Assembly (NCBI RefSeq): GCF_024323335.1
Contig: NC_066579.1
Location: 236,147,475 to 236,211,474, forward strand
Direction: 5' to 3'
DNA from: Lathyrus oleraceus
Lineage: Eukaryota > Streptophyta > Magnoliopsida > Fabales > Fabaceae
DNA length: 64,000 nt
Shown here piece by piece: positions 11,691 through 55,804 of this stretch. The position numbers were made by a program, and so were the translations under genes. The notes beneath the pieces were generated by a model. The model did not search any database. It was given only the letters and a program-made list of their open reading frames with translations, and had not been told where the DNA came from. The first letter of the stretch is position 1. The number at the start of each line of letters is the position of its first letter.

Positions 11691-12216
11691 CCGAACTACG
11701 GCAACTCTGATTCTCATGTTCAGATGAGATACGTAGGCACGAGACGCGATGTCTTGCCGAGTTTGACTGACGACTAACAATTAATCCTTGCTGGTTTTCG
11801 CCCTCGTTGCGATTCTTTTCTCTCGCCCCCGTTGCGATCGAGACCTTCCTTTTCTCTTGCCCTCGTTGCAATCGAGACCCTTTTTTTCCTTTTCGTGTGT
11901 GTTTGGAGTTGGATGTAAGTCCATTTATTGGCATTCTGTTTCCTGTTTGCGTTTGTTTGTTTGGAGTCAGATGTAAGACCATTGATTGGCATTCTGTTTC
12001 CTGTTGTGTGTTTGCTTTGGCATCTCAGCGTCTATTTCAGCGTTCTGTTTCGGCGTGCGTTAGCCGAGCTACGAGTGCTCTGATTCTTACTCTGGTTAGA
12101 GAAGATACGTATGCATAGGATGCGATGTCCTAGCGAGCATGTTTCCCATTTCCCCGAACTACGTCGACTCTGATGTTTGTTTCTGACAAACTACGTAGGC
12201 CTAGGATGCGACATCC
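11691..12216 (+). promoter_or_regulatory. Three R/U5 structured-RNA motifs, element A
   Basis: Each copy has an outer stem CTACG/CGTAG (one CGTAT), an inner stem, then a downstream hairpin with a CGA loop. Inner stems are TCTCAT/ATGAGA (11712 with 11724), TCTTAC/GTTAGA with one mismatch (12085 with 12095), and GTTTGT/ACAAAC (12175 with 12186). The CGA hairpins are AGACG/TGTCT (11742), GGATG/TGTCC (12118) and GGATG/CATCC (12204). Stem bases change while pairing is kept. The function is unknown. Confidence 0.6.
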
Positions 12217-12523
12217 TGCCGAGTCCCCTTCTTCCGTCTTTCACTCGTGTTTTATTCCAGTTTTGTGTAGTTTTTGAGCAGTTTGTGAGCAACCTTATTC
12301 TATTCTTTTCGAGCGTGGATCCCGTCGAGTACGACGGACGTGAGGGGTGCTAATACCTTCCCCTTGCGTAACCGACTCCCGTACCTTGCAATCTCTGATC
12401 GTAAGACCATTCCTTTCCTTTCCAGGTTTACTTCAAGCATTTCCTTTCCCTCCTTTGGGATAAATAACGCACGGTGGCGGCTCTGTGTGCTTTTCCCGCC
12501 GGTTGTTTTTCGCGTATGCGACA

Positions 12524-14203
12524 GATACCATAGGGTTTGGGTTGCCGAGATCGTACTGTTATCCATGAAGAACCCAAAACCCGCAGGCATTTGCTGGGCG
12601 AGCCTGCAGCGAAGCTTCGCTAAACGAAGCAGCAGCGATCGCGACAGCAGTTGCTTTTCTGTTTGCTCTCATCCGTTTTGTGTTTGTCATGACATTGTTT
12701 TCTGCTGATTCCATCTTGTCTTCTCTAACCTGTTTGTTGAGTTTTTTGAGGGCTCACATGACTTTAGAAGAGATGGCTTGCTTGGTATTCCACTTTATTT
12801 GTGGGATACCATTTGGGAGATTTATTCTGATTGCCTTGCTGACTGGTTTCTTTGATGGTGCTAGCCTGAGAGATCTCTGGGTTTCTTATTTCTCTAATTG
12901 TTGTTGCTTCAGATCTTTATCCGTGTGGTAGATCTCTTGATCCCTTTATTTTTCCCGCATTTTTACCACTTTCTTAGTTGGAAGACCTCGATAGGAGGCA
13001 ATGTTTTTGTGTGTTTACTTTTGTGCCCAAAGACCTCCAAGAAGAGGCACCAGTGCTAAAGACCTCCATGAAGAGGCAATTGACGGATAAAAGGGACTAG
13101 TAGTCAATCCCCCGTTATTCAATGCGTCGTTCTTTAAGATTACACTACGTGTCGATGCTTCAGAACAAAAGCTCAAGATCTTTTGTCCGGCCGGTCAGTG
13201 GAGAGGGTTCCATCTTTCTGAACCCCCACGCCTTGTCATGAGCTTACCCTGTCCAGGGTTAAGAGCTATGAGGTCTTATCCTCATCACCCTTTTGATCTG
13301 CTCACCCTGACGTTCATTGTCAGTGGTTAAGAGCCCATTTGATTACCTTTCCATGGCTTGTTTGTCGAGGCTGATATGACCCCTCTTGACTAAAGCCCTA
13401 CCCATGTATGTTTGAGCCCCTTTGTCGGCGTGTTTACTTTATGCATGTTTGTTTTGTATGGTGTGATTGTCTCTCCATAGGATTGCTAGGCTTCGTATAG
13501 TCTCCCGTTTGCATGTCAAGTAAGGTAGTGCGGTTCCTTCGTCTAGGACTGCCTTTTTGCATGAGCATCCCTAAAACACAAACAACTCATTGATTTTTCT
13601 TCTCCTAAGAACACGTTTACTCCTTCTACTACAGGTGAGTAAGTCTCCAAAGGTCGAGCATCCGATAGATTGCGTAGTAACGTCGTTCGCCCAAAACACA
13701 ACCCTTAACCCGTAGTTAGCCGAACTATGTTTTGCTCTGATTCTCATTCCAGATGAGATACGTAGGCATAAGACGCGACGTCTTACCGAGCACACATCCC
13801 CCTAACCCATAGGTAGCCGAGCTACGAAGACTCTGATTCTCATATTCATATGAGATACGTATGCAGTGGATGCGACATCCGCACGAGTCATTTTCTTTTG
13901 ACCCGTCTCTTTTAATAAATGGTACATTAGATAAACCCACACCCTTTAGACAAGAACAACAAGAGTGGATTCCGTAGAGTACTACGGATGCGTAGGGGTG
14001 CTAATACCTTCCCTTCGCATAATCGACTCCCGAACCCAAGATTTGGTTGCGAGACATTGTCTTTTCCTTTCCTTTTCCCAGATTTACTTCGAGCATTTCC
14101 TTTCCCTCCTTTGGGATAAATAACGCACGGTGGCGACTCTTCTGTCTTCTCCTTCTTCGCCGGTTATTTTTTTCGCACTCCTGTTTTTTCGCAGGTTGCG
14201 ACA
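12524..14203 (+). mobile_element. Element B 5' LTR, right part
   Basis: Starts abruptly at GATACCATAGGG, which matches B's 3' LTR from 27364. Its first about 777 bp are missing because A is inserted there. It ends GTTGCGACA two bases before the PBS. It holds the hairpin ATGAGG/CCTCAT (13268-13285) and two structured motifs (13721-13783 and 13820-13880). Two stretches absent from the 3' LTR copy show that copy has lost sequence. A frame beginning MTLEEMACLVFHF (about 12760) is shared by both LTRs, as expected for LTR copies. Confidence 0.85.
13721..13880 (+). promoter_or_regulatory. Two R/U5 structured-RNA motifs, element B 5' LTR
   Basis: Copy 1: inner stem TCTCAT/ATGAGA (13742 with 13753) and hairpin AGACG-CGA-CGTCT (13771-13783); its outer stem start has decayed to CTATG. 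Copy 2: outer CTACG (13822), inner TCTCATAT/ATATGAGA (13838 with 13848) and hairpin GGATG-CGA-CATCC (13868-13880). The same two copies are in the 3' LTR at 28406-28464 and 28503-28561. Confidence 0.6.
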
Positions 14204-14205
14204 GC

Positions 14206-14223
14206 TGGCGACTCTGTTAGGGA
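14206..14223 (+). other. Element B primer-binding site
   Basis: TGGCGACTCTGTTAGGGA, two bases after the LTR end. It differs at two positions from the clean copy in E (TGGCGACTCTGCTGGGGA). A primer tRNA would pair here to start minus-strand synthesis; Ogre elements are reported to use tRNA-Arg, which I cannot test here. Confidence 0.8.
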
Positions 14224-15047
14224 AACCGGGTCTCCCTAAGCGAGTCCCTCCTAGATTTTATAGGTTTCTTGTTTGTTGGGTGTTTATTCTTTTGTACAGT
14301 TATTTATTTTTCAGCACTTGTGTACATATCATTGCTGTGTCTGTTGGCTCTGTTGGGTTGTTTGTTTGTGGGAGTGGGATGTTCTGTGTGAGATAGGCCC
14401 AATACACAGGCCTGAGTGCACTTAGGATTAGCGTGGTTTCACATACCCTCACGTTCCGTCTCGGTCCGATGTTGGAATATGAAAACACAATTCGGATGTG
14501 GATCTTTCTAGAGAATTTTGTGTTGTGGATCTCTTACAGTGCTAGAGCAATCTGGGAGAACTGTTAAGTCTGGATGACCTTTAGGATGACCTTTACCTTA
14601 CTTTCATGGGAACTTGGCTGAGACACTCCTCTTATAGTGGTAATTCCAAACCGGAAACGGTGGACGTATTATTACTATTCGGCCTGAGAGCCCGTGATAT
14701 CAATGTCTCTACCCTTTAGCCTCCGCATGTGAGCTGGGTGGGTTGTTTACAGGTGTGCAGGAACCCTTGACCTCATCATACCCTGATATCTTATACCTGG
14801 TACCTGATCATCATGGTTCTATTTCCTGGATCCGAACTTCTGGCGTTGGTTTTATTTTTGGACCTGGACTGCCGACTTTTGAGGACTTCTTCACAGAGAA
14901 CAGCCCGTGGTTCAGTATGTGGCCGGAGCCGGTCACATGTCCTTTGCATTGCATAACATCATCTGCATATTTGCATCCTACATCTCATGCTTATTCATTT
15001 GCAGGGTATCCCCTTTCTCGGTTTGGTTTGGCTGATATGTGCTTATT
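14224..15047 (+). other. Element B leader
   Basis: 824 bp between PBS and ORF1. It is not alignable by eye to the leader of C and E. It ends with TTTGCAGGG at about 15000, an acceptor-like tract before the ORF1 start. I see no gene; an open frame over part of it lacks any recognisable domain. Confidence 0.6.
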
Positions 15048-16789
15048 ATGGAGGCTCCCAGGAAGAGTAATGTGACCTATCATTTCTTCGATACTAAGAT
15101 CGGCCCATTGCGTCAGATAAAAGCTTTGATTACTCCTGACCATGTGGGTTTATTCCGGGACACTTATGGCAACATCTTGCCTATGGTTGAAGACTTGGAT
15201 GCTTCTCAGAGGAGTTTAATACATACTTGCTTGCAGTTTTATGATCATCAGTTGTGTTGCTTCACTTTTCAAGATTTCCAGTTGGCTCCTCTATTGGAAG
15301 AGTATGCTATGATCTTGGGTGTTCCTCTACAGCATTGTGTCCCTTTCAACTCCGATATACCTCCTCCAGAGCATAAGGATATTGCTAAGGCTCTTCATCT
15401 GGAAGTGTTTGTTGTAAAGGAAAATCTCTCTTCTAAGGGAGGCATATCTGGTTTCCATCTGGATTTTTTGGTAGACAAAGCCGAAGAGTGTGCCGCTCAA
15501 GGCAATTGGGAGGCTGTGTGTGCTCTGTTAGTGTTAAGTGTTTATGGTATTATGCTATTCGCCGATGAACCGAAGTTCGTGAGTATGAGTGCTATTCATA
15601 TCTTTCTGCTAAAGAACCCGGTTCCCACCCTTCTTGGTGATTTCTATTTTTCGGTGCACAATAATAATGAGAAGAGACGAGGGAGATTGGTCAGATGTTG
15701 CGCTCCATTGTTCCATAAGTGGCTCATGGGGCACTTTCCAAATGACAATGCTTTTCTGAATTCGCATCAAGCCAGGAATTGGGCTAGAAGGTTGGTTGTC
15801 TTGACTGCTAAAGACATCAGATGGTGTAATCAGAATACCAAAGGTGGCGATTTTGTGGTTAGCTGTGGGAAATACCCTAATGTACCATTGTTGGGTATGA
15901 AGGGTTATATCAACTATAACCCGATTCTTTTGAGAAGACAATTAGGGTATGCCTTGACTCACGCTCCTAAGGATCAAGATCTGGTGGAATCTTTCTACTT
16001 CCCAGTGCAAGATAATCTAGAATTGGTTAAGCAAGCTACTGGAGCTTGGAGGAATATTCAGACTAAAGGTGCTACTGTCTATGGAAGATGTAACAACATC
16101 TCTTCTTCCCAGTATGATAGTTGGTTGCGAGAAAGAGCTCAGATTACTCTTCTACCTTTCTCTATGGGAGAACCATTTGATCCGGTTATTGTTGAGTCTG
16201 TCAGTATGGTTGAGTACAACAGTTTGAAGCAAGAAAAGGGAAAAGCCGATAAGTTGAATGCGAAGCTGAGTGAAGGCCTCAGGAAAACTTTGTGCGATAA
16301 GAAAGAAGCTGAGAGAGAAGTTCAAAGATTGAATGAGCTGCAAAGACAAAGCAATGAGAGGATTGCTGAAGATGTTGTTTATATCCGTAAAGTCTGTTCA
16401 GGTGAGGATATACTGAAGAAAGCTTGCAAGGCTGCTAAGGAATAGTTAGGAAAAGCTGAATATAGGCTTATTGAGCTCCAGCAAAGGTGGGAAGAATTGT
16501 CTGATCGCCGGAGACAGGTTGAGATAGGAATCAGAGCAGAAAATGAACGGTTGAAGAGTAGGGAGAACGAGCAGCATGAAGCACTTCGATTGGCTGAACA
16601 AGAGATCGTCGAACTAAAGATTCAAGCAGGGGTCAAGAGAACAAAAAAACAAACAAGTATAGGAAATTGGAAGAAGCGGTCAAAACGAGGAATTTGTTGA
16701 TTCAAGGCCTTACAGAACACCCTAACGACCTGGTTATAAAGGCACTTCTTAAGGAAGTTCGAGAAGACTCGTTTGGGTTAGGTGTTTGA
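15048..16789 (+). pseudogene. Element B ORF1
   Basis: Extra ORF upstream of gag, typical of Ogre elements; I believe it belongs to a plant mobile domain-like (DUF7745-type) group, and its function is unknown. Residues 1-320 form a globular domain with PVPTLLGDFYFS, a CCAPLFHKW block and NYNPILLRRQLGYAL. The last about 200 residues are charged and probably coiled coil (KLNAKLSEGLRKTLCDKKEA). The start at MEAPRK (15048) is chosen because the domain follows at once. A single TAG at 16443-16445 interrupts the frame, and an A run near 16645 shifts it; the frame after the shift ends at TGA 16787-16789. C, D and E carry homologues; only E's is intact. Confidence 0.78.
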
Positions 16790-17154
16790 CTCCTTTTGTT
16801 TTTGTAGAGTTCACCATCAGGCTTGTTGATGGGTTCTCATTTCTTTGTTCATCGCTCCGCACAGCTTGTATTTTGACTATGACACCTTTCGAATGTTTCA
16901 TGCTCTTTGATTATTTCGGTATTGTTATTTGCACGTTCGATTGCGGTCGTACACATTGTTCTGGAAGGTCAAGCCGGAATTGAGAAGGGGGGCCTTAAAA
17001 TTGAATAAGCAGCACATCGCATACCATGCATATTAACCCTTGTTTGTTTTGCAGGTGTCACCACAGTGTCTAATGTTTGTTCCCTGTTTCAGGCATTATT
17101 GGTGCCAAGAGAGTCCACAGGTACCCGACAAAGGAAAATCGTCTTCAACTAGCG
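16790..17154 (+). other. Element B ORF1-gag spacer
   Basis: 365 bp of non-coding, T-rich sequence. It holds two acceptor-like pyrimidine tracts, TTGTTTTGCAG near 17045 and CCCTGTTTCAG near 17082. After the second, the frame into Gag is open and includes HRYPTKEN, related to HRYYTRVN before Gag in E and HRYSNRSN in D. Gag may therefore start upstream of the ATG I use. Confidence 0.5.
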
Positions 17155-19373
17155 ATGGACCAGGTACAAAAAGAGTTGGCTGATATGCGTGAAAGGATGG
17201 ATCAGTTCATGACATTGATGACTGGTATGGCAGAAGGCCAGGAAAAGCTGAGGGAATTGGTTGAGCAACCGAGGCCCGATCTAGAGGTGGAGATACCAAA
17301 TGCTGACGGAAACCCTGGTAACCCTGGGAACGCTGATAACCCTGTGAACACTGGTAACGCGGGTAACGCAAATGCTGATGGAAACCCGGGTAATGTTGGC
17401 AACACAGGGAATGTTGGAAATGGTATTGGCGGAAGGTACGATGTGAATCAAGGAATTCGGATTAACGGGCGCCCCGTTACTGAAGATTATCAGTATGATC
17501 AATTCTCTTTGCACGACGAAGCCCATGAGACCACTCGCCGTATGGATGAGCTTGCTGAGAAGCTCAAATCTTTGGAGTCTCAAAATTCCTTAGGTTTTGA
17601 TGTCACGAACTTGGTCTGGTTCAGGGAGTAAGGATTCCTCACAAGTTCAAACCCCCTACTTTTGAGAAATACAACGGGGCTTCTTTCCCACACACTCATC
17701 TCCAATCTTATTTGGGATGGTTGGGAGCTCACACGGAAGATGAAAAGTTGTGGATGTACTATTTTGAAGACAGTCTAACTGGAGCTTCTCGTGAATGGTA
17801 TTCTCATTTGTCTCGTACTACCATCAAGAGCTGGAAAGACTTGGCAGAGGCTTTTGTCAAGCAATATCAATACAACTTGGACATGGCTCCAAATCGGACC
17901 TTGTTGCAAGGAATGTTTCAGACTGCCAAGGAGACCTTTAGAGAATATGCTCAGCGTTGGAGACAAATTGTTGTGTCCATCCAACCCCCTATGTTTGAAA
18001 GGGAGATGGCGGACATGTTCATGAACACTCTTCAAGGCAATTATATTGAGAGATTGGCTGCTTGCCCGTCAATCAGCTTTGCAGAGATAGTAATTGCTGG
18101 AGAAAGAATCGAGAGTCTGTTGAAGATGGGCCGAATTCAAGACAATAGTGCTTCCAGCTTATCAGGTCCCAAGAAACCGTTTGCTGGTAACGGTCAGCGA
18201 AGAAGAGAAGGCGAGATAAGCGTTGTGTATGCCGACAGAGGCAGGGGCAGAGGACGCCTTAATTATTATCAAGATCAAGTGGCCGCAGTCACTATTCCAA
18301 CACCTGCTCCTCAACAGCAATAACAACCGCAGTATCATCCGCAACAGCAACCCAGGTACAACAATCAACAACAAGGAGGTAATCCGGGTCAGCAGAGACA
18401 CTATCAACAACATCCAAGGCAGACGGATCGGGTCATTGAGCCAATCCCAATGCCTTATTCTATGTTACTTCCCAGGCTGATTGACCTGCATCTGGTTACA
18501 TTAAGAACTCTGGCCCCACCAATCGATCCCAATAATTTGCCTAGGGGTTATGATGTCAACGCCAAATGTGCTTTTCACTCCAACGCACCTGGCCATACTA
18601 CAGACAATTGCAAGGCTTTCCAGCTAAAGGTACAAGATTTGAGAGATGCCCAGGCTATCAATTTTTCTCCGGTGCCAAATGTTATCCAAAACCCGATGCC
18701 AGCCCACGGCGGGCAGAGGATTAATGTTGTTGATAGTGGGGAAACTTTGAATTTGGTTTCTGATGTGACTAAAGTGAAGACTTCGCTATCAGTGGTCAAA
18801 AACCGACTCTTGAAAGGACAGATTTTCTCGGGCTGTGGGGAAGAGTGCAGAAATTGTCAAGCTGCCGAGAACGGATGTGATAGTTTGAGAAGGGGTATTC
18901 AAGAACTGATGGATGAAGGTTGTCTTCAGTTCGATCAGACCCGTCCAGTGAAGAATGATGTGTCGACAGTGACGATTTATTTCACTCCTGAAGAAATATA
19001 TGTTCTCGAGAGACCCGCTCCGACAACAATATATTCCCTAGAAAGTACAGAACCAGCAACGGTGAACATCGAAAGCCCATCACCAATTATAATTTACTCT
19101 GACAGCCCTCAACCGGCTTTGGTTATTCCGGTCACCATCACGATACTAGGACCTGTTCCGTATGAGAAAGACAGTGCTATCCTGTGGCACTATGGGGCTG
19201 ATATCTACTTCCAGGGGTGGAAAGTTGACGATGAAGACATTGACATTGGTAGCTCCACTGTAGACAATGTTGGAGGGGTTGGTGGCTTCACTCGCAGTGG
19301 ACGCCTATTTGCACCATCAACATTGCGCACGAATACTGAAGCTGAGGCAGCTGCCAAGGCTAAAGGAAAATAG
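17155..19373 (+). pseudogene. Element B gag
   Basis: Gag, the capsid/nucleocapsid precursor. An N-terminal helix (LADMRERMDQFMTLMTGM) is followed by a Gly/Asn-rich tandem stretch (about 17300-17430, GNPGN/GNVGN units), then the retrotransposon Gag core (about 17640-18130; WLGAHTEDEKLWMYYFEDSL). Arg/Gln-rich RNA-binding sequence follows, then a knuckle CAFHSNAPGHTTDNC near 18567, then an acidic linker to pro. Breaks: loss of one G near 17613 shifts the frame before the core; TAA at 18321-18323 is in the Gln-rich tract; TAG at 19371-19373 is where D has Gln. From 17640 to 20051 the reading frame is otherwise continuous. Confidence 0.85.
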
Positions 19374-20537
19374 GTAGCCACCGAAGAGGTTACTACTGAG
19401 GAAGCTCCTCCTAAGACCGCATTCGAGAAGGAAGTGGATGAGTTTATGAGGATTATCAAGAAAAGTGACTACAAGGTAGTCGACCAGCTAAATCAGACAC
19501 CCTCAAAGATCTCCATTCTCTCACTATTGATGTGCTCTGAGGCGCACAGAGCAGCCTTGTTGAAAGTACTGAATATGGCCTATGTTCCACCAGAGATAAC
19601 TGTTAACCAGCTGGAGTCGGTAGTTTCAAATGTAAACGCTAGCCATGGGCTAGGTTTCACCGACTATGACCTGACATCTGAGGGCAGGAATCACAACAAG
19701 GCTTTACATATCACAATGGAATGCAAAGGGATGGTGCTTTCCCATGTTTTGGTTGATACAGGCTCTTTTCTTAATGTTCTTCCAAAGAAAACCTTAATGA
19801 AGTTGGATTGCGATGGCATCATCCTGAAGCCAAGTAATTTAGTTGTGAGGGCTTTTGATGGCTCTAAGAGATCTGTCTTTGGCGAAGTTGAGTTGCTAGT
19901 TAAGATTGGACCGCAGGTGTTCAAGAGCACCTTTTATGTGATGGATATCCAGCCTGCCTATAGTTGTCTGCTAGGGCGGCCCTGGATTCATGCTGCCGGT
20001 GATGTTACTTCTACTCTCCAGCAGAAGCTCAAATATGAACTAGAAGGTTAGGTCGTCACTGTCTGTGGTGAAGAGGATACTTTTTTTTAGCCACCTGTCT
20101 ACATTTAAGTATGTGGAGATGGATGGCGAGATGCATGAGATGTTGTGTCAGGGCTTTGAAGCCGTAAACATCAGTGAGGTCGCGCCCGAAGCTGTCTTTT
20201 CACCTAAGTCCGAGAAGGTCGGGACTTCTATCTCTTCATATAAGCAAGTTGTTGAAGTGGTTAAAGCTAGTAATGCCCAAGGCTGGGGCAAATTTGTGGA
20301 GCCAATCATCAAAGAAGACAAGTTTGGATTGGGGTTTACTCCAGGGTCTCAGAAGAATGAAGCCGGTACTTTCTCCAGCGGGGGTTTGGTTTCTCCCCAC
20401 ATCGTCAATGTTGCAGATGAAGACAAGGCTGACAGCGACTGTGACTTAGATAGCTGGTTTCGCCCGTGTGTCCCGGGAGAAAAGCTCAACAATTGGTCGT
20501 CTGAAAAAGTCGTCCGGGTTACTCAACTGAAAGAGTA
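19374..20537 (+). pseudogene. Element B protease and Gag-Pro C-terminus
   Basis: Aspartic protease that would mature Gag and Pol. The active site D-T-G-S is at 19755-19766 (VLVDTGSFLNVLPK), followed by the conserved GEVELLVKIGPQ strand and SCLLGRPWIHAAGDV. The tail from 20113 (SSYKQVVEVVKASNAQGWG, then DSDCDLDSWFRP) is a conserved region of unknown role. Breaks: TAG at 20049-20051, and one extra T in the T run near 20090 that shifts the frame. The final TAA at 20536-20538 overlaps the splice donor, so unspliced RNA ends Gag-Pro here. Confidence 0.85.
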
Positions 20538-20813
20538 ATTTTTATTGTTTTCCTTTTATTACATGCATAATAAAGTCTTACCCTTTGCCCAAGGTGTAAT
20601 GACTCATCTGTAGGGCCATCCATTTAGTTACATTTCGCAATTATTTTCATCATCAATAAAGGACAGCTTTTGCAAACAATTTTGTGTTCTCTTTCTTTCA
20701 ATTATTTTTACTTTTACAGAAAAAAACAAAAAAAATGGCAATGTTCCTTTTTCGTTTTTCTTTCCAAAAAAAATCTCTCGTTCTAAGGTAAAGCATGATC
20801 CTCCATCATGCAG
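20535..20813 (+). other. Element B pro/RT intron
   Basis: 279 bp from GTAATTTT to CATGCAG. The donor lies inside the final GAG-TAA. Joining GA to the A at 20814 gives a Glu codon and continues into DDHPDL...YDFDNPIYQAEE, the linker before RT. AATAAA is at 20655-20660. A phase-2 junction is also found in A and C. An alternative acceptor, TTTTACAG near 20719, is less consistent with the other copies. Confidence 0.75.
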
Positions 20814-27017: not shown

Positions 27018-28884
27018 TCAGAACTTCATTGAGCCAAACCCGGATTCTATTCCTATTTACCCTGGCAGAAGAGAAAAGCTTACAGAATTCAGAGCAGCCT
27101 CCAGACAGCTCTGAAAAGTTCACTCTGACTCACACACTTTTTCACCTCCATCTCACACAAACCCTAACATTGCTTTGCAAACCCAGTCGTTCCATTCGAT
27201 TTTAATCGATCTCTCCAATCAGGTTTGCCCTTATTCCCATTACTCTATGCTTTCAATTTGAATTCTCTGAATGTATGAGGTATCATTAGGCTTTGCCCAC
27301 GGGTTTAGATATGCATGAATGTGTAAACAATACCTTGAATGTTTAATCGTTTCCTTGCTGATGGATACCATAGGGTTTAGGTTACCGAGATCGTACTGTT
27401 ATCCATGAAGAACCCAAAACCCGTAGGCATTCGCTAGCCGCTTCGCTGGGCGAGCCTGCAGCGAAGCAGCAGCGATCACGACAGCAGTTGCTTTTCTGTT
27501 TGCTCTCATCCATTTTGTGTTTGTCATGACATTGTTTTCTCCTGATTCCATCTTGTCTTCTCTAACCTGTTTGTTGAGTTTTTGTGAGGGCTTACATGAC
27601 TTTAGAAGAGATGGCTTGCTTGGTATTTCACTTTATTTGTGGGATACCATTTGGGAGATTTATTCTGATTGCCTTGCTGATTGGTTTCTTTGATGGTGCT
27701 AGCCTGAGAGATCTCCGAGTTTCTTATTTCTCTAATTGTTGTTGCTTCGGATCTTTATCCGTGTGGTAGATCTCTTGATCCCTTTTTTTTCCCGCATTTT
27801 TACCGCTTTCTTAGATGGAAGACCTCGATAGGAGGCAATGCTTTTGTGTGCCCAAAGCTCAGTGCGTCGTTCTTTAAGATCACACTACGTGTCGATGCTT
27901 CAGAACAAAAGCTCAAGATCTTTTGTACGGTCGGTCAGTGGAGAGGGTTCCATCTTTCTGAACCCCCACGCCTTGTCATGAGCTCACCCTGACATTCATT
28001 GTCAGTGGTTAAGATCCCATTCAATTACCTTTCCGTGGCTTGTTTGTCGAGGTTGATATGACCCCTCTTGACTAAAGCCCTACCCATGTATGTTTGAGCC
28101 CCTTTGTCGGCGTGTTTACTTTATGCATGTTTGTTTTGTATGGTGTGATTGTCTCCCCATAGGATTGCTAGGCTCGTATAGTCTCCCATTTGCATGTCAA
28201 GTAAGGTAGCGCGGTTCCTTCGTCTAGGACTGCCTTTTTGCATGAGCATCCCTAAAACACAAACAACTCATTGATTTTTCTTCTCCTAAGAACACATTTA
28301 CTCCTTCTACTACAGGCGAGTAAGTCTCCAAAGGTCGAGCACCCGGTAGATTGCGTAGTAACGTCGTTCGCCCAAAACACAACCCTCAACCCGTAGTTAG
28401 CCGAACTACGTTTTGCTATGATTCTCATTCCAGATGAGATACGTAGGCATAAGACGCGACGTCTTACCGAGCACACATCCCCCTAACCCATAGGTAGCGG
28501 AGCTACGAAGACTCTGATTCTCATATTCAAATGAGATACGTATGCAGTGGATGCGACATCCGCGCGAGTCATTTTCTTTTGACCCCTCTCTTTTAATAAA
28601 CGTTACATTAGATAAACCCACACCCTTTAGACAAGAACAACAAGAGTGGATCCCGTAGAGTACTACGGATGCGTAGGGGTGCTAATACCTTCCCTTCGTA
28701 TAATCGACTCCCGAACCCAAGATTTGGTTGCGAGACCTTGTATTTTCCTTTCCTTTTCCCAGGTTTACTTCGAGCGTTTCCTTTCCCTCCTTTGGGATAA
28801 ATAACGCACGATGGCGACTCTTCTGTCTTTTCCTTCTTCACCGGTTATTTTTTTCGCACTCCTATTTTTTCGCAGGTTGCGACA

Positions 28885-42317: not shown

Positions 42318-42325
42318 TATAAATA
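42318..42325 (+). promoter_or_regulatory. TATA box in element C LTR
   Basis: TATAAATA in the context CTCAGCTATAAATACATGCC, about 1.5 kb into the LTR. The GC-richer sequence upstream fits a plant core promoter. Activity not shown. Confidence 0.55.
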
Positions 42326-45300: not shown

Positions 45301-45334
45301 CACCAACTCATTTTTTTGAGATTTTTACCCCGAA

Positions 45335-45393: not shown

Positions 45394-45734
45394 CCAAACA
45401 CAAAATGTAAATAACTTGTATATTCTCTTCTCATCTCTTTAATCATGTTTGCACAAATAAACTTTCACAAAATACCAACCTTACAACAAGTGTGAAAAGG
45501 GCTCCCTAGGAGTACCTAGGATGTTTTGGGTGCTTAAAACCTTCCCATTACATAACCAACCCCCTTACCCAGATCTCTGACATTTTTACTAGTTTTTGAT
45601 TTGATAAAACTTTTAGGTTTTTGTTTGCTTTCTAACCATTCCTTTGGATAAATAGAAGTGCGGTGGCGACTCGACTTGTATGGTTTACCTTGGATTTAAT
45701 CAATATCTCTAATGGTAACGAATACCCCACTACA

Positions 45735-45779
45735 GGTGGCAACTCTGTTTTTGTGTGTGTGTTTCTCCTAGATGCGACA
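45735..45779 (+). mobile_element. Element D 5' LTR stub (45 bp)
   Basis: GGTGGCAACTCTG at the start and CTAGATGCGACA at the end match the terminal region of the A and B LTRs (GGTGGCGGCTCTG...ATGCGACA in A). It sits between C's LTR end and a PBS. I read it as the inner end of D's 5' LTR, left after C inserted. The alternative is that the first bases are C's own PBS, but they lose similarity to a PBS after 13 bases. Confidence 0.6.
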
Positions 45780-45781
45780 AC

Positions 45782-45799
45782 TGGCAACTTTGCTAGGGA
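45782..45799 (+). other. Element D primer-binding site
   Basis: TGGCAACTTTGCTAGGGA, two bases after ATGCGACA, the same spacing as in B. Three differences from E's clean PBS, in line with D's age. Confidence 0.7.
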
Positions 45800-46460
45800 A
45801 TCCCTAAGCAAGTCAGTCCTAGCTCTTGTTTGTTTGCTTTTTCATTGGGTGTTGTTTGTCTATTGCTCTGTTTCTATTACTCTTTTTATTTGTTTGCATG
45901 CATTTTCATCTGGATGATTGGTTTTATCATTCTGTGTTGTTGTTTCTTTGGAGGGTGGGTGTTACATTGTGGTAAAAGACCCACTACCCAGGACAATGTA
46001 CACATAGGATTAGAGTGGATACTCATGTCAACTTTAGTGGCCCTTGACATGTATGAGAATGCATGAGATACCACACCCAGATGAGGTTTTCTTGAGAATG
46101 CTTTTATCCTTCACCCTTTGTGCATAAGACAAGGTGTTGTTTATTGAGGACTCACGACTCGGGTGGCCATTAGGAACATTTGTTTCTGTCCAAGACTAGA
46201 ACCTACCTATGAGTTGGGGTGGGGTTTACAAGAAAACAAGCTTTCATCATACCTGGTTTTCTCAGAATCAAAAATAACGTCGAACCTTTGATCCTGTTAC
46301 ATTTGACCCGGTTCTGTTGTCAGCACAACAGTTGCTCAGTTTTATGGAATACTTGATCCCATTGCATTCATAAGCATTTGTTGACCTTATTTTGACATGC
46401 ATGTTCTTTTATTTCTAGGTTTTCTAGTCTTTGAGTCTTGTTGTTAAGCCATCTTCGAAG
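45800..46460 (+). other. Element D leader
   Basis: Non-coding leader, distantly similar to B's leader. The phrase AATCCCTAAGCAAGTCAGTCCTAG follows the PBS, as CTCCCTAAGCGAGTCC does in B. No gene is seen. Confidence 0.55.
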
Positions 46461-48379
46461 ATGAACACTGTTAAGAAGGTCAACTACATATACAACATCA
46501 TCTACAAGTTCCCAAGCCCAGTTCTAGATGATCTTCTCAAGCTAGCTAAGAGGTTTTTCCCTAACAATCTTGATGTCTTCAGAAAAGGATTATGGAAGGA
46601 TTTTGGGTTACCTGGAAGCTTCTCTTAATGAATACCAGAGGGATGCCATTCATACTTTGCTACATGGTATGCCATTCATACTTTGCTACAGTTTTATGAT
46701 CGCACTCTGAGATATTTCATTTTCCTGGATTATCTGCTAGCACCTACTTTGGAATAGTACTCCAGTATCTTGGATATCCCTATATTGCATCAAGTACCTT
46801 TTCATGCTTACATGAAGAAACCTGATTCTACTCAGGTTGTTGCTGCTCTTTATTTGAGCGAATCTATTGTGAAGGCTAACTTTAAGAAGAAGGGAAGTGT
46901 CTATGGTTATCATTTTAGTTTTTTGTTGAAAGAAGTTGGTGGTATGGATGACAAGGAAGATTGGAAAGCTTTCAATGCTGTTCTAGCTTGTTGTATCTAT
47001 GGGATGGTGTTGTTTCTTAATAAAGTGAAGTTCATTGATGAGAATATTGTTGATATATTTATTCAAAGGAATCCTATGCCAACTCTCCTAGGAGATGTTT
47101 ATCATTCCATACATTCTAGGAGTTATAAAGGGAAAGATGGCGTCGTTCATTGTTATGCGCCACTGTTATACCATTGGTTTAGAAGTCATATCCATTACCA
47201 AGGTGCTTTTATGGATACCCAAGACACCTTGAAGTGGTCCCAAAGGCTGATGGGACTCACCTCTAAGGACATTAACTGGTACAAGCATAGTTTGAGTGAA
47301 CTGGAAAATAAAGAAGTGATCTTTATCTGTGGGAAGTTTCCCAATGTGCCTCTCATGGGGATGAGGGGTGGCATTAATTACAACCCAACTCTTTCTCGAA
47401 GACAATTAGGGTATACTTTGAAAGATGCCCCTGAGGATAGAGATGTGCAAGAATCCTTATTTTATGATGTACCTGATAGTACTTGATGGATGGAAAGAGC
47501 TGCCAAAGCATGGGGGAGCATTAATCTGAAAGGAGGGACATATTTTGGGAAGAAAGATTACGTAGTCTATTCACCTTATATTAAGTGGATTGAGGAGAGG
47601 AACAAATATTGTCACTAGCCTTTTGCTCTGGAGGCTCCTTTATATCCACAAGAGCCTGATTATCCAGATGTTGTACCTAAGGGATCATATGACCAGATTA
47701 AAGCTCAGAATCTCCTACTACTTGCAAAGAATGAAAGTTAGGGGTAAAGCTTCTTGTGGCCAGTCAAGGGAAAGCTCAATTGTCTCACAAGCTTAAGAAG
47801 GTTCAAAGAGAAATGAATGGGATTGTGAAAGTTAAGAAGAGATCGAGGTTTGAAGATGATCGAGGAAGCACATTTGTTTCTGTTGAAGTTCATAAGAAGG
47901 TCCTTGAAGAAGCTGAGGAGAAGATCAAGTGAAAGCGTCGAGCTTATGAATTTCTTAAAGCATCCATAGCCAAGATGGAGAAAAGATACAGAGCCAAGAT
48001 TGAAGAGTTAGAGAAGCGACTCTGAACTAAAGATGTCCAGTTTGAAGAGAACACTCATAGTCTAGGGGTGGAAACTCAACTCAAAGGAAGTAACTTTAAG
48101 TTGGGAAAATTTGTAGAAGAAGTTGCAAGTCTCAAGGTTCAGTTGGAAGGAAAAGATGATGATCAAATTCTGCTTCCAGAATGCAATGAGTTTGAGAAGT
48201 TCATTGAGCAATGTCAATACTTGGATGGCATGATCTTCTGAAAGGATATGGTTATTTAAGGTCTTGTTCTAAGGCGTGATCAAGAGGGAACAAGGAAGTT
48301 GTTCAAGGAGTCCAAGAGGTGGAGTTTGAAGTATTTCAAGAATGGAGGGACGTTGACCTATGTAGAGTGGGAAGATTAG
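46461..48379 (+). pseudogene. Element D ORF1, decayed
   Basis: ORF1 remnant, closer to B than to C/E. Start at MNTVKKVNYIYN. A frameshift near 46600 and a 26-bp tandem duplication (46643-46668 and 46669-46694) break the N-terminal part. The domain is readable from about 46770 to TGA 47484-47486, with NPMPTLLGDVYHS, YAPLLYHWF and NPTLSRRQLGYTL. Beyond it, up to TAG 48377-48379, the charged C-terminal region survives only as scattered pieces in several frames. Confidence 0.72.
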
Positions 48380-48689
48380 ATTTTGTCTTATATTTTTCAT
48401 GTGGTGATCACCATCAGGGTGATTGACGGTGTCTTTTTATTTTGTATTGTTGCCTTTGGTTAGTTATTTCTTTTGTGCGAATTGCTTGTATTACAATTTA
48501 TTTCGATTTAATGAGTATGATGGTCAGTTTATCAATGTTCACTATTTATATTCTTTTCTCTCACAATTTATTTCTATTTATATTTGAACATGTCATTGCA
48601 TACATTGCATGCATTCACACATTCATATCCCATGTATAACAGGTTTTTTGTCTGGTCTTCTTATCTTCATTCTACTTTTCTTAGCAGGG
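48380..48689 (+). other. Element D ORF1-gag spacer
   Basis: 310 bp, T-rich, ending CTTTTCTTAGCAGGG just before the ATG at 48690. The tract looks like a splice acceptor, in the same relative place as in B. No gene. Confidence 0.45.
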
Positions 48690-51371
48690 ATGGTAAATCC
48701 AACTTTCCACCGGTATTCCAATAGAAGCAACCAACATCACCAGATGGAGCAGATTCAGGCTGATCTTGCAGATATGAGAACTCAGGTAGGCACCAGAATG
48801 GCGCAATTTATGGAGGTTATCACCAACTTGGCTCGTGGTCAAGAGGACCCGAGGGCTCTTGTTGAGAGACCTCGAGTGGTTCAGAATGAGAATGAACATC
48901 CTGAGTTTATATTTTAAGATATTTATATGGGGAAACCTAGTCCCAATGCCACTATGAATTTCCCTTATCAACATGCCAATGGTTATCAGAATGTCATTCG
49001 TAACCAGGGTTTGCATGGCAACCAAGGCCTTTTTCCACAACCTCCACCATATAATCATGGACCACATCTCATTACTGAAGAGATGCCAGGACATCCAAAT
49101 GTGAGAGGGAATCCTCAAGTACAAGAATTGGAGATGGATCATAATGAAGACATGTACTCTATGCACAACAATGATTTGGGTTTTCCTGTTGAAGATAGGA
49201 AGTAACACATGCTGGAAAAGAGATTGAAAGTAGTAGAAGGCCAAGGAGTTTTGGGGATGAATGTTAATGACCTGGGGCTGGTAGCAGAAGTGGGAGTTCC
49301 ACCAAAATTCAAAGTTCCTATTCTTGACAAGTACAACGGAACAACTTGTCCTAAAACTCATGTGAAAGCTTACTACTATAAGATGTCTATGTATTCGAAA
49401 GATGAAAGGTTGTTGATGCATTTCTTCCAAGACAACTTATTGGGGCGTCCCTAGAGTGGTATATGCATTTGGAAAGATCCTATATCTGGAACTAAATTGA
49501 TTTGGTCGAGGAATTTATGAGGCGTTGTCAATACAACATCAACATGGCTCCTAATAGGACCCAGCTGCAAAGTCTGGACCCAGGGCCCAAATGAGTATTT
49601 CAAAGAGTACGCCCATAAATGGCATGAATTAGCTGCTCGGGTTCAACCTCCGATGATGGAAAGGGAACTCGTTGATATGTTCATGGGCACTCTGCAAGGT
49701 CCATATTATGATAGAATGGTGGGGAGTACCTCCGTTGGGTTTTCTGAATTAGTAATGTCGGGAGAAAGAATTGAAGTTGGTCTTAAGATGAGCAAAATCC
49801 AGTCTACTAATGCTGGTAGTTCTACAGGAAGAAGTGCTAAGAAACCGTTCGGTGGGTATCCCAAGAAGAAAGAGGGTGAATCTAGTGCTATGTATTCTCA
49901 AAGGGGTCAAGAAAGAACTCAACAATAACAACAAGTGAATGTTGTAACTATACCGGTTCCTGCAGCTCCTCAACCACAACAACCCCAGTATCAGCAGCAA
50001 CAGAATACTCCTCGGTGTAACTACAATCAGCAGAGATAACCCATACCTAAGAAGGTGTTTGATCCGATTCCTATGTTTTATTCTCAAGTGCTCCAGCATC
50101 TACTTCAACTCGAGTTGGTTAACCTGAGGAATATGCCAGCTCCTCCTAAGAGGCTTCTTATAAATTAAAATCCAAATGCTCGATGTGAATTTCATTCCGC
50201 TGGTATAGGTCATGATGTGGAAAATTGTTTGGCGCTTAAGTATGTAGTACACAATTTTTTGGATTCAAAGGCCATCCAGTTCACCCCAGATAATTGACCC
50301 AATGTTATCCAGAATCTGATGCCTGCTCATAATCAACCAGCTGTTAATGCTATTGAAAATGATGAAAGTTAGAATTTGATAATGGATATGAATTTGGTGA
50401 CTACCCCGTTGCCATTTGTTAAAGAGTATTTGTTTAAGAATGATGTTTATCCTGGTTGTTTTCCCGAATGCTGTAAATACAAGAATCAATCGGAAGGTTG
50501 TGATGATCTGAAAGCAGAAATTCAAAATTTGATTACTGAAGGTTTTCTACAGTTTGATAGAATTTTGAAAGATAAGAAGATTGAGGAGACAAATCTTATT
50601 GTGGTCTCTATCCCATATACTCTAATTAATATTCCAGCTCTAGCTAGACCAACTCCCTTGACTATTACTTTGCCTGGTCCAATTCCCTACTCCAATGAGA
50701 AGGTTGTACCGTGGCATTATGGTTCTGATGTTTACTATCATGGGGTAAAGCAAGAGGAGAAGCCTTCTGAAGAGAAGTCATTTGTGGATGACAGTTTGAA
50801 TGTTGATAATCTTGCTGGTATGTGTATAATTACAAGAAGTGGTTGGGTATTCCCTTCACCAAGTACTCAAGATAATGTTGATGCATTGGCGAAAGCTAAG
50901 GGTAAACAATTGATGGAAGATAACCAGGAACCTGTGCATATTAATGTTCCTGAGTGAGGTGTAGTGCCCAGTGCTTCCTCCTCCTAGGAAGTTGAAGAGT
51001 TGTTGAGGATAATCAGAAAGAGAGACTACAAAGTGGTGGTTCAATTATGTCAAACATCGTCCAAGATTTTGATTTTGTCTTTGCTATTATGTTCTGAGAC
51101 CCATATAAATGCTCCCATGAAGTTGTTGAGTTCTACTTTTGTTCCTTAGAACATTACTATTAATCAGTTAAAAGGGGTTGTGGCTAGCATATCAGAAGAT
51201 AATGGTATGGACTTCACAAATTTCAATCTCCTACCCGAAGGACGAAACCATAATAAAGATCTACACATTTCAATGGAATGTAAAGGTACTACTTTATCCT
51301 GTGTGCTGGTGGACACTGGTTCATCTCTGAATGTGCTACCCAAGTCAGCCTTGGTGAAGATAAATTATGCG
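48690..51371 (+). pseudogene. Element D gag and partial pro
   Basis: N-terminal helix (MEQIQADLADMRTQ), Gag core (about 49290-49760; VPILDKYNGTTCPKTHVKAY), Gln-rich region, knuckle CEFHSAGIGHDVENC (near 50185), linker ITRSGWVFPSPSTQDN and start of protease with DTGS at 51312-51323. Many stops (for example 48915, 49203, 49926 and 50376 upstream region) and a local frameshift pair between about 49445 and 49650; otherwise most of it stays in one frame. Protease is cut after VKINYAGG and everything downstream (intron, pol, 3' LTR) is missing. Confidence 0.8.
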
Positions 51372-51474
51372 GGTGGGGTTTTTTCCTACAAGTCATATTT
51401 AACTTCAAAAGGCCATATCTCTCAAACCATTTGGCCAAATTTGGTGGGGTTTTTTCCTACAAGTCATATTTAAC
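51372..51474 (+). repeat. Direct duplication at the D/E junction
   Basis: A 32-bp sequence starting GGTGGGGTTTTTTCC occurs at 51372-51403 and 51443-51474, 71 bp apart. The first copy directly abuts D's protease. The text between resembles Ogre LTR sequence. It marks the breakpoint between truncated D and truncated E LTR. Confidence 0.8.
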
Positions 51475-54400
51475 CTCCTCTTTCCAAAAATGTGACCTTC
51501 ATGCACCAAAACATTACCAATCAAAACGGCATTTTTGAACCTACTTGAATTAATTTTAAGTGTGGTGCAAAAGTGAAATTTTGATTTAACCACTTTTAAA
51601 CACTTTGGCCAATTGGAAATGTTCAGAAATGTCATTTTGGTCATGCTTGTAAGCCCAAATTCGTGCACCAGCCACTACACCTCCACATGTGAACCAAAAC
51701 CACCATTTAGCAAAAACTTACCATTAATCAAATTGTGTTTAGCTCTTACTAATGCAACCTTAAACATAAGTATTTAAGCACATTTTCTGCACAATTAAAC
51801 CACAGAATATTTCATTTTCTCTCAAATCACCATTTTCTCATTTTTGCATTTTCTAACCAAACTTCCAAAGAACTCGAGCAACCCTTTGTGGTTTCATCAC
51901 CTGACCATCATTGTGAGCCATTTCCAAGCATCAATCACCAACTGGAACAGCATTCTCGATTCTGATTTTCCAAGCTCCAACAATGGCAGATTCCGATTTG
52001 GACCTCTTCAAGCATCACTGAGCTAAATTGCTTCAAGTATCCATCATTCCAAACCACAAGGAGCACCTGTTTCAAGCCAAAGCACTCAAACATCACTGTT
52101 TTCACAAATTTCTTCAAGAACAAGTAAATATTCGAATCTCATATTTCATTAAACTTTGCCATGCTTTAGTTAGATCTTAGATTGCTGATTCCATTGAACT
52201 TTATATTGCATGAAATGGTTGAGTATTCACTGATTTCTATGGATTTAAAGTTTACTACATGAACATGTTCTTGCATGCTGCTCTCCTGTTAGGTCGATTT
52301 AGTTCAAATGCTTGCTGGATTTATGATGTATGTTGATTACTGATTCTATTGGTATGGCTAATTTCGAATTCTGGGCGATTTAATTTTTCATGATTGAATG
52401 AACAAGATGATGTTGGTACTGTATGCGCAAACCCTAAAATTTCCCAGAACCATTGAAATGCGTTTGGTTGCTGTCCCGTGTTTCTGCATGAGAAATTTCA
52501 ATGTGCTATTGCCATGTTCCTATTGCTGCTTGACACATCACCGGGTGCTACGCACCGTTTCATTTAAGTGAACCAACAATTACAAAAATGCCATCCACGG
52601 TTTATTTAATCCATTTAAAATCAATTCATTTCAATTTTTTATTTCATTTTGGTTCATCATCTTCTAAAATTCATAACATCATCACCTTTGATCCAAATTT
52701 CATGGAAATTTTTGCATTATGCTCTGCTTGATATCTAGTTTTTTATCATGATTTTTGCTGATTTTTTGGATGATCGAATTTTTAATGATGCTAGGGTTTG
52801 TGACATGCATGCATATTTTGTACATTTTGCCAAATCATTTATGAAATAGTGATGCATTATCCAATGGCCCTGAATTGTTTTGTGCTCAAACTAGACACAC
52901 TCATGGTGATTTTGATATAGAGTTTGTGAATTTATCTTATCTGGTCATTGAGTTATGAATTTTTGAATTAGGGTGTGACAATTTGTGTCACACCATTGAT
53001 ATGCAATTTCATGATTTTCTTTACCATGCCTCTTGACCTCCAATTGATGTGAATTTTTGCATGAACCTACTCTTGTATGTCTAGTTTATGTGTGAATTTT
53101 CTTGGAATTATTTGTGGCATTTTCTAATTGTTTGAGATTTTCTCCCCTGTTTGACCAAAATGTTGACTTTTGTGATACATGTTGCCATTTCCTTTGTGAA
53201 ATTCTCATACTTTATTAGATGAACTTGAAATTTGACATGTGATTAGTAGACATCCTAAGCTTTGTCATGGTGTTGATCCCATTCATTTATCATTTGTTAT
53301 CACTGACTTATGAATTTTTCAAGTTGATACATGTTTGGTTGACTTCTTTGAGCATGCTTAAAATTACTTTGACTTTCTGATTTTCATTGACTATCTTCCC
53401 ATGATCCAATTGAGCTGAAATTTGATATGCGTGTCATGTTATGGATTATGATTGATCATGAATTATGTGATGATTTTTGGAATTGATTATGATTGGTTTT
53501 GAGCTAAGTCTTGCTGTTGACCTCTATGAGCTTTCATTTGCCATGTTTTGACTTCTTTTGCTTATGAAATCATGATGATGAATGATATGAATGTGGGACC
53601 AATTGAGTTTGCTTCTTGATTGTTTAAACTTGATTTTGGTTGACTTTCATTTGCTGTTTTGACTTTCTCATCCTCTTTTGACCCTAGGCTTGTCCTAGTG
53701 GTCTCATTGCTTATGTTTGAGCTCATTGTTTCAGGTTAAGCAACAATTGCCTCAAAGAAATTTATACAACTTGGTTGAGCTTGATTTGTTTATCATGAGC
53801 TAACCTCTTTGTTTTGTAGGTGGCTTGACTCATATGATTTGAGTCTTGTGCTTTGCACATTCATCTGATTATGTTGACTGTTAATTCTATTCTCATTTTG
53901 CTTTGACTTTTGAACTGTGTACTGATTCTGTTTGACTATTTCAGGTACCATTAGTTGCTTAGTTCTTTGAACTTGCTTTGCTTTGCTTTATAGCAATTTG
54001 CATTGAGGTATAATCCCTTTTCTTCATGTAGTCTGGAAGACCTGGCCTGTTACTTGGCCAGGCAACTGTCTGAAGTCCTCCTTAAGAGGCAATGCTTGTG
54101 TGTGTTTACTTTTGTCCCAAGCAGGAAAAGTCCTTTTAATAAGGCAATTGGTAGATCAAAGAGATAAGCAATCTATCTCCTACTATTCTGTGAGTCTTCT
54201 CTTTGCTCCCATTACATGGTTGTAGCATTGAGATCCAAGCCCAAGATCTATAGAGTCTTATCTGTGGAGAGAGTTCCTACTTTCTGAACTCCCACACTTT
54301 CTGATATTCAATGCTCTCCCTGACCAGGGATAAGAGCAATGAGGCACACCCCTCATATCCTTTCATCTGCTTCACCTTTGCCCCTCAATGGCAAGGTTAA

Positions 54401-54619
54401 GAGCACCATTGAACCTATTCCAGTTGGCTTCAATGCCTGACCCTTTGAATGAGCCTCCTTGTTTGGTTATAGTGTGTGCTGATTGCTTTCATTGATTGAT
54501 CAATTGTTTCATATACACATGTTTGCTTGTATGCTCTATGCATTTATCATCATTTATTGCTCATCAATGCATAATCATCTCATTTGTCTTTGTGACATTA
54601 TCATTGTTGTTTACCCATT

Positions 54620-55140
54620 GAGGACAATTGTAAGACCATCCATTGGCCATTGCTCCTATGATATGGAAGTGAGTATAAGACCATCACCTTGGCCACTCAT
54701 CTTATCTTTGCTTGATGCATTTGATTGTATGTGAGGATGCAACTGTAAGTCCCTGCAAGTTGGCATTTGCTTTCCTATGATCACATGTTGTTTTGTTTGT
54801 TGTATGTGAGGATACAACTGTAAGTCCCTGTAAGTTGGCATTTGTATTCCTAGGACCATGCTGTGGAGGTTAGAGTAAGCCCAGACAGATTGGCATCTGA
54901 CATCCATGTTTTGTTTTTCTTTGTTTATGTGAGGATGCAATTGTAAGTCCCTGCAAGTTGGCATTTGCTTTCCTAGGATCATATGTTGGATATTGGTATA
55001 AGTCCAGACAGATTGGCATCCGGTATCCAAGTTTCTTTTTGTTTGAGGAGATTAGTGTAAGACCATTGAGTGGCCTCTGATATCCCGTTCTGTTTTAGGA
55101 GATTGGTATAAGCCCAATGATTGGCATCCGATATCCGCTT
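54620..55140 (+). repeat. TGTAAG...TTGGC modules in element E LTR
   Basis: About nine degenerate copies, 40-75 bp apart, with cores near 54629, 54671, 54745, 54817, 54873, 54940, 54996, 55058 and 55105. Two sequence types alternate: TGTAAGTCCCTGCAAGTTGGC and TAAGYCCAGACAGATTGGC. Four relatives occur in A's LTR. Confidence 0.65.
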
Positions 55141-55745
55141 TTGTTGACTTTCCTGTTTGTTTGTTATTATCGATTGCCCATTCCAAAGGACACACTTGAA
55201 TCATCCCCTATATGATTTCAAGAAGTGAACCTTCTAAGAAGTTTTACAATCCATCTCCATCCATTCATCCCCATTATGTCCTAAACCTTTTCACACTTTG
55301 ATCTCAAACTTGACATAGATATTGTGCAAACATCTTCATGTTTTTTTTCAAACTAAAAACCTGGACCCAAGTCCTTGACTTTTTCCAAACCCATTTCATA
55401 ACACTTCTTTTGAATCAATCTTAATCATACTTTGACTCCACTTTCATAATCACAATTAATTAACTTCACCCATTCACTTGTTTTGGCTTTGTCCATTGTT
55501 AATCTTTTCATGCATTAGCCATAGGTTTCAATTATCATTGTGGTTGATGTAAACCTCACCTTATCTTTAGTGAGTCGACAGTAAGACTTCCGTACTGAAA
55601 ACAGGGTTAACCCCTCTAGTACGTCGAAGCTATCCTCGCATGGTGGATGTTGGTCTTGGTCGAGTTTTCTCCCATTGATAATGAAGAGCCTCAGTGCTAT
55701 TGTTTAAAATTGAATCCACCAACTTTTGGAAATCTTTTAGCCGAA

Positions 55746-55804
55746 CTACGGCGTTTTGATCCTTACCTTTGATGGAAGGTACGTAGGCAACGGGTTCATC
55801 CGTT
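55746..55804 (+). promoter_or_regulatory. R/U5 structured-RNA motif, element E LTR
   Basis: Outer stem CTACG/CGTAG (55746-55750 with 55782-55786). Inner stem CCTT-CC with one bulged A, paired with GGAAGG (55761-55767 with 55774-55779). Downstream hairpin AACGG-GTTCAT-CCGTT (55789-55804). Compared with C, the downstream stem changes T-A to C-G. Confidence 0.6.

Follow-up and report, generated by a model that had tools for sequence, protein, structure and literature searches.

A putative pseudoknotted RNA motif in the long terminal repeats of Ogre-like retrotransposons of Lathyrus oleraceus

Motif copies in the window and their fold

The stretch analysed here, i.e. a window of 64,000 nucleotides of Lathyrus oleraceus (assembly GCF_024323335.1, contig NC_066579.1, positions 236,147,475 to 236,211,474 of the forward strand), contains long terminal repeats (LTRs) of retrotransposons, designated A, B, C and E, each of which carries one to three copies of a motif of about 70 nt. 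Element B, which is Ogre-like, has the motif in both of its LTRs. An original prediction, made from the sequence alone, had named nine copies, and all nine were located on the + strand where it had put them. They were recovered by a covariance model (R1), whose training alignment includes these nine copies, at 58.8-82.7 bits, the next-best match in the 64 kb reaching 13.1 bits; this run, with filters off, returned 17 rows up to an E-value of 10. The - strand of the window holds no TACGTANGC. The copies, with their helices P1 to P4, are as follows.

11693..11763, + strand: copy A1, 80.7 bits; P1 11696-11700/11732-11736, P2 11703-11707/11759-11763, P3 11712-11729, P4 11740-11756
12066..12139, + strand: copy A2, 68.6 bits; P1 12069-12073/12108-12112 (GAG...CGTATGC variant), P2 12076-12080/12135-12139, P3 12085-12105, P4 12116-12132
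12156..12225, + strand: copy A3, 82.7 bits; P1 12159-12163/12194-12198, P2 12166-12170/12221-12225, P3 12175-12191, P4 12202-12218
13722..13792, + strand: copy B1 of the 5' LTR, 82.7 bits; P1 13725-13729/13761-13765, P2 13733-13737/13788-13792, P3 13742-13758, P4 13769-13785
13819..13889, + strand: copy B2 of the 5' LTR, 77.6 bits; P1 13822-13826/13858-13862, P2 13829-13833/13885-13889, P3 13838-13855, P4 13866-13882
28403..28473, + strand: copy B1 of the 3' LTR, 81.1 bits; P2 mismatch TGCTA/GAGCA
28500..28570, + strand: copy B2 of the 3' LTR, 78.0 bits
45332..45400, + strand: copy C, 58.8 bits; P1 45335-45339/45372-45376, P2 45341-45345/45396-45400, P3 45350-45369, P4 45380-45393
55743..55810, + strand: copy E, 60.2 bits; P1 55746-55750/55782-55786, P2 55752-55756/55806-55810, P3 55761-55779, P4 55790-55803

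Folding of the window copies brought out a third helix, in which the bases before TGAT pair with those after the second hairpin. The order of the strands is GAR, P1 (CTACG, 5 nt), 1-3 nt, P2 (5 nt), UGAU, the P3 hairpin, UA, P1' (CGTAG), 3 nt (GCA), the P4 hairpin (17 or 14 nt in the window copies), 2 nt (NC) and P2'. Almost certainly, P2, P3 and P4 meet in a three-way junction, and P1 joins the segment 5' of P2 to that between the two hairpins; since P1 crosses P2, the result would be a pseudoknot on a three-way junction.

This arrangement replaces the two-part motif of the original prediction, i.e. an outer stem followed by a second hairpin: the second hairpin sits inside the closing helix P2, and what had been taken for an outer stem is P1, the helix of the pseudoknot. 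The closing stem had been overlooked; it is intact in eight of the nine copies (AACTC/GAGTT, TGCTC/GAGCA, GACTC/GAGTC or GTTT/AAAC), the exception being B1 of the 3' LTR with TGCTA. The single elements had been described broadly correctly, with some corrections. CTACG/CGTAG is exact in five of nine copies, whereas B1 of the 5' LTR reads CTATG (a G-U pair) and A2 and both B2 copies read CGTAT; the GCA linker before the second hairpin is GCC in A3; the inner stems were listed without that of A2, and in B2 of the 3' LTR the pairs of hairpin 1 adjoining the loop are lost; among the second hairpins, A1 (TGTCT) and A2 (TGTCC) contain G-U pairs. Nor is the fold confined to the four LTR types, as other stem types are found elsewhere in the genome.

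Conservation and covariation of the fold

Further copies come from the start of contig 1, where they were the first to be listed by patterns needing an intact CTACG; the wider pattern also required TGAT and ACGTA, requirements which neighbouring copies found by the model escape. Since the copies were found by the motif itself, part of their conservation is owed to the search, and the statement that the motif is kept in every subfamily sampled was dropped as circular. Among 85 distinct copies the junction is nearly fixed, with TGAT exact in 83, TA in all 85 and the C before P2' in 84, and P1 is preceded by GAA in 65 and by GAG in 20. When two copies from outside this genome (L161 and L162, described below) are included, 71 of 87 have all five P1 pairs, CGTAT occurring in 15 and CATAG in one, while the P2 core, at its best placement in the tail, has four of four pairs in 80 copies, three in six and two in one. 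The P2 types of these 87 copies are GCTC/GAGC (26), ACTC/GAGT (21), GTTT/AAAC (17) and GCCC/GGGC (nine), together with the singletons GTTC/GAAC, GCCT/AGGC, ACTT/AAGT and CCTT/AAGG, the remaining rows being mismatched or wobbling.

RNAalifold, with no structure supplied, returned P2, P3 and P4 from 35 copies, a set picked with P2 words required and thus favouring P2. These are the 35 distinct copies kept out of 40 rows, one of which was a duplicate, while four (L102, L106:129, L109 and L119) failed a word filter that demanded the C and set P2 words; all four are included in the set of 85 copies, in which the C before P2' was recounted. In an alignment of the 85 copies fitted to a model holding P2-P4, standard pairs make up 92.6% of 1924 pair cells, compared with 75.0% for shuffled and 30-45% for slid partners. 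To remove this fit to the model, the copies were realigned blind to structure.

Covariation was assessed with an R-scape-like script (not R-scape itself) that combines a FastTree tree, a G-test with average product correction and two tree-based nulls. For 52 copies and 60 nulls per kind, two pairs reached E<0.05 under both nulls and a third under one of them; kinship among the copies limits the significance of individual pairs. In the structure-blind alignment of the 85 copies, ranks 1 to 9 of the 3003 column pairs are all held by pairs of P2, P3 or P4, rank 10 by a coupling of columns 3 and 51 and rank 11 by a P1 pair. When scores were summed over helices, none of 1000 site-rate tree nulls reached the sum of P2, P3 or P4. 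The covariation of these three helices is above the phylogenetic background in this script, and supports the selection on RNA structure, with many double-sided stem changes, that the original prediction had proposed. G-U cells outnumber A-C cells overall (116 vs 33), as well as in P3 (22 vs 6), P4 (88 vs 10) and P1 (2 vs 1); the preference for sense RNA comes mostly from P3 and P4.

The coupling of columns 3 and 51 joins GAA/GAG to TACGTAG/TACGTAT (AG in 65, GT in 15 and GG in five of 85 copies), all 15 CGTAT copies starting with GAG. This could perhaps restore P1 pairing through a one-base shift.

P1 is nearly invariant, and its closing pair (8-47) was therefore tested by counting over the whole genome, i.e. 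raw matches on both strands of 3.795 Gb, with the reversed pattern as control. The wider pattern, with G-C at this position and additionally needing an A before CGTA, gave 216,635 matches against 116 in the control, which is far above chance; the motif occurs well over 200,000 times in this genome. A-U gave 28,362 matches (control 1,109) and U-A 19,139 (control 5,388), while the one-sided changes gave 7,270 for A.C (235), 7,560 for G.U (219), 550 for U.C (394) and 826 for G.A (239), the controls of U-A and U.C being high and the matches listed including chance matches. Under independence about 254 A-U and about 2 U-A matches would be expected, so that the observed excess is about 110-fold and about 9,000-fold, respectively. 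The A-U places span several P3 subtypes (about 100 of 28,362, among the matches listed), so that this change has probably had more than one origin. As a test, the palindromic pattern CTACGN{6,30}CGTAG has little power, with 110,153 matches vs 62,029 for its reverse on each strand.

A scan of prokaryote assemblies gave three matches. The first (L161, 45.1 bits), filed under Solirubrobacter, is a scaffold of 4.2 kb that lacks any open reading frame (ORF) of 120 amino acids; it holds the motif, with a GGTGGCGACTC block downstream, and at 3515 a site resembling a primer-binding site (PBS), TGGCGACTCC. The second (L162, 49.0 bits) is a contig of a Bacilli metagenome-assembled genome from roe-deer gut, with the motif near one end of the stretch examined and otherwise bacterial-looking ORFs. 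Both show new compensated P2 stems. Both are probably plant DNA or chimeras, i.e. contamination, and with such a plant origin the fold would not be confined to one species. The third match (L163, 16.2 bits, inside an ORF) was taken as chance, as were 96 loose-pattern stretches in viral contigs, in which GAACTACG was found in none and GAGCTACG in one (L043), without matching stems.

Rfam gave no match in the window at gathering scores. At E<=10, the region 11600-12600 had one unrelated weak match only, and at E<=5 nine loci gave three weak matches below the gathering score, none of them to a ribozyme or xrRNA (exoribonuclease-resistant RNA) family. In line with the original prediction, no description of the motif was found in the open-licence literature, as judged by titles and abstract openings, subscription papers on Ogre lying outside this scope; nor was any literature found that joins xrRNA with retrotransposon, plant and XRN4. 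The word TACGTAGGCA occurs in the literature in primers, in the cases examined.

Host element and position within the LTR

Between its LTRs, element B carries five ORFs which, scanned separately, gave matches in order to DUF7745, to Retrotrans_gag, to no domain, to RT_RNaseH and RVT_3, and to Integrase_H2C2 and rve. The host element belongs to the Tat clade of Ty3/gypsy and is Ogre-like; we place it with Ogre rather than Retand by the extra ORF ahead of gag (DUF7745 at 15036, Retrotrans_gag at 17601), which we take to be a mark of Ogre. It also has a second RNase H (RVT_3) between RT_RNaseH and integrase, a position that, as stated in the part of the source consulted, distinguishes Ogre and Retand among Tat elements (PMC6317226). 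PBS-like sites were found in three elements.

14206..14216, + strand: PBS-like TGGCGACTCTG of element B, adjoining the end of the 5' LTR
45782..45792, + strand: PBS-like TGGCAACTTTG of element C
56155..56165, + strand: PBS-like TGGCGACTCTG of element E

In B, C and E, the motif lies upstream of these sites, with 317-414 nt between its end and the PBS-like site. TATA-like words were found upstream of the motif in A (8582), B (27011) and C (42318, also 44447 and 44490), and only TATTTAA words in E. With PBS-like sites downstream and TATA-like words upstream, the motif is probably part of the leader. The original prediction had placed it in transcribed R/U5, i.e. the repeat and unique 5' regions of the LTR; a position within transcribed LTR sequence is probable, but R/U5 is plausible and unproven, given the several TATA-like words of LTR C.

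Tandem non-identical copies, 85-97 nt apart, were seen in 18 of 58 sources, most of the sources being short excerpts and one of them (L126) repeating another (L114). Another conserved hairpin, with an AGTA loop, was found between the motif and the end of the LTR.

12322..12337, + strand: hairpin CCGTCG-AGTA-CGACGG, LTR A
13972..13987, + strand: hairpin CCGTAG-AGTA-CTACGG, 5' LTR of B
28653..28668, + strand: hairpin CCGTAG-AGTA-CTACGG, 3' LTR of B
45505..45520, + strand: hairpin CCTAGG-AGTA-CCTAGG, LTR C
55914..55929, + strand: hairpin CCTAGG-AGTA-CCTAGG, LTR E

Its stem varies (CCGTCG/CGACGG, CCGTAG/CTACGG, CCGTTG/CAACAG, CCTAGG/CCTAGG), and it follows 39 of the 62 copies with at least 200 nt downstream, amounting to 30 distinct hairpins in 25 of 37 sources.

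About 80 nt 5' of the first motif, LTR A and the 5' LTR of B show a splice-donor-like CAG/GTGAGTAAG, at about 11600 and 13635, respectively; the matching site of the 3' LTR of B reads CAG/GCGAGTAAG. LTR A, which ends in GCGACA, abuts at 12518-12530 a fragment of a B LTR whose sequence carries on that of the 3' B LTR at 27364, and therefore A seems to have inserted into the 5' LTR of B.

Possible roles of the motif

LTR retrotransposons make up a large share of many plant genomes, and to our knowledge little is known of their cis-acting RNA signals. We tentatively favour the reading, at somewhat less than an even chance for the statement as a whole, that Ogre-like elements carry the motif in their sense transcript as a conserved RNA module with a pseudoknot, which serves as a cis-acting signal read by Gag or the reverse-transcription complex. 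Placed in the 5' leader of the genomic RNA, a few hundred nucleotides before the PBS, the module would act at the RNA level and be recognised there; its reader would most likely be Gag or the reverse-transcription complex, in packaging, dimerisation or initiation, and tandem copies might raise avidity. A signal of this kind is favoured because the fold lies near the PBS, is selected as RNA and is often repeated. Taken by itself, a role in packaging or reverse transcription, suggested by position and repetition in the sequence, is possible though quite uncertain. A comparable case is the 5' pseudoknot of Ty1, likewise a cis-acting signal of LTR retrotransposon RNA; Ty1 as well as BARE, however, belong to another superfamily, have another fold and carry their known signals outside the LTR. 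The dimerisation and packaging signals of BARE are, as far as described in the part of the source consulted, also cis-acting RNA signals of an LTR retrotransposon (PMC3735527). Conserved, repeated non-coding motifs are reported from the Sireviruses, another lineage of plant LTR retrotransposons, but those are palindromes likened to transcriptional activators, and the part of the source consulted describes no pseudoknotted RNA fold for them (PMC2829016).

Several observations weigh against this interpretation. The single-sequence folding energy is ordinary (z between -2.25 and +0.07 in ten copies), and the case for structure rests on covariation, not on folding energy. At the level of individual pairs, only 2 of 3003 reached E<0.05 under both nulls for 85 copies and 300 nulls per kind, and the P1 helix sum was reached by 26 of 1000 nulls, which leaves P1 by itself short of significance at the 1% level. 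The U-A change at the closing pair of P1, with its high control count, belongs nearly to one subfamily among the matches listed, a pattern that may reflect one amplified event. As for the strand, P2 reverses the signal of the other helices (four G-U vs 16 A-C cells), and the single changes of P1 are even genome-wide (G.U 7,560 vs A.C 7,270), i.e. show no strand preference. Finally, packaging signals often lie between LTR and gag and not in the LTR, and in the Solirubrobacter scaffold the PBS-like site follows the motif by about 0.6 kb, farther than in B, C and E.

The main rival to a cis-acting signal is a roadblock to exoribonucleases, in which pseudoknot and junction would hold the 5' strand and stall 5'-3' exonucleases, thereby protecting the RNA of PBS, gag and pol after decapping or silencing cleavage; we regard it as somewhat unlikely. 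Like the motif, flaviviral class 1 xrRNAs are compact three-way junctions in which a strand lying 5' of the closing stem is paired to the junction (a first pseudoknot, PK1), and, according to the parts of these sources consulted, they often occur as multiple non-identical elements (PMC5760640, PMC13161572); the tandem copies would give such redundancy here, and the conserved GAA or GAG upstream of P1 would also fit. In one xrRNA, however, a second pseudoknot, between the apical loop and downstream bases, is described as needed for resistance (PMC13161572), whereas no such pseudoknot was found for the P4 loop, the mean pairing run being 4.47 vs 4.70 for shuffled partners, with 300 of 300 shuffles as high (81 copies). 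Further, P1 has 5 bp as compared with two pairs reported for the viral case (PMC5760640), the motif lies in an LTR and not in a viral 3' untranslated region, and Rfam has no xrRNA match to it. Likewise unlikely is a reading in which the motif, in its more than 200,000 copies, represents a new class of mechanically robust pseudoknotted RNA, be it xrRNA-like or catalytic, and determines where the genomic RNA of Ogre effectively begins, a few hundred nucleotides ahead of the PBS. We know of no 5'-end-setting RNA of this type in LTR retrotransposons. A self-cleaving ribozyme like that of hepatitis delta virus (HDV) is very improbable; it would cut the transcript just upstream of P1, so that the processed RNA would begin some hundred nucleotides short of the PBS. 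The strand order P1-P2-P3-P1'-P4-P2' is indeed that of the HDV ribozyme, its nested pseudoknot order being shared by the HDV-like ribozymes of R2 and L1Tc, and the junction, including the C before P2', is strongly conserved; but the HDV P1 has about 7 bp, starting from the cleavage site, as against 5 bp here, and the UGAU and UA linkers are foreign to it. Tandem copies also set the motif apart, conservation (GAR) reaches upstream of the supposed cleavage site, self-cleavage in each LTR would presumably cut the genomic RNA, and Rfam gave no HDV, hammerhead or other ribozyme match. In favour of a ribozyme, HDV-like ribozymes are, in the part of the source consulted, known from other retroelements (PMC4035085). 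The hammerhead reading of CTCTGAT was rejected. Retrozymes, i.e. plant LTR elements with a hammerhead, likewise hold a small conserved RNA fold in the LTR and share a superficial CUGAU after the closing stem, but unlike them element B is coding.

An element for translation or export, i.e. an internal ribosome entry site (IRES), a shunt or an export structure serving a long leader, is quite improbable: the leader would be long if the distal TATA-like words were used, and compact pseudoknots occur in viral IRESs, but more than 1 kb separates the motif from the first ORF of B (13889 to 15036) and nothing specific points to ribosomes. An element acting as DNA, either a transcription-factor site with an ACGT core or a cruciform, would explain why single changes of P1 lack a strand preference and why A-C cells exceed G-U cells in P2, and the TACGTA palindrome resembles the A-boxes of bZIP factors; three helices and a pseudoknot with constant linkers, and G-U cells far above A-C cells in P3 and P4 (110 vs 16), make it highly improbable. 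That the motif has no function, its covariation being mimicked by LTR family ancestry and alignment error, is hardly credible: the copies are related and few pairs are individually significant, but the tree nulls never reached the sums of P2, P3 or P4, and the double changes of P1 exceed independence genome-wide by the factors given above.

Whichever reader the favoured cis-acting signal may have, the fold combines covariation over many stem types with a place near the PBS and no Rfam match, and offers a short, concrete RNA for testing packaging, decay resistance, self-cleavage and translation, while the covariance model provides a search key for Tat elements in other plants.

Elsewhere in the window, a tandem array with a 39-bp period (5901-7331 and beyond) was seen as 36 overlapping 300-nt registers spaced by 39 nt, and is possibly a retrotransposon-derived tandem repeat.

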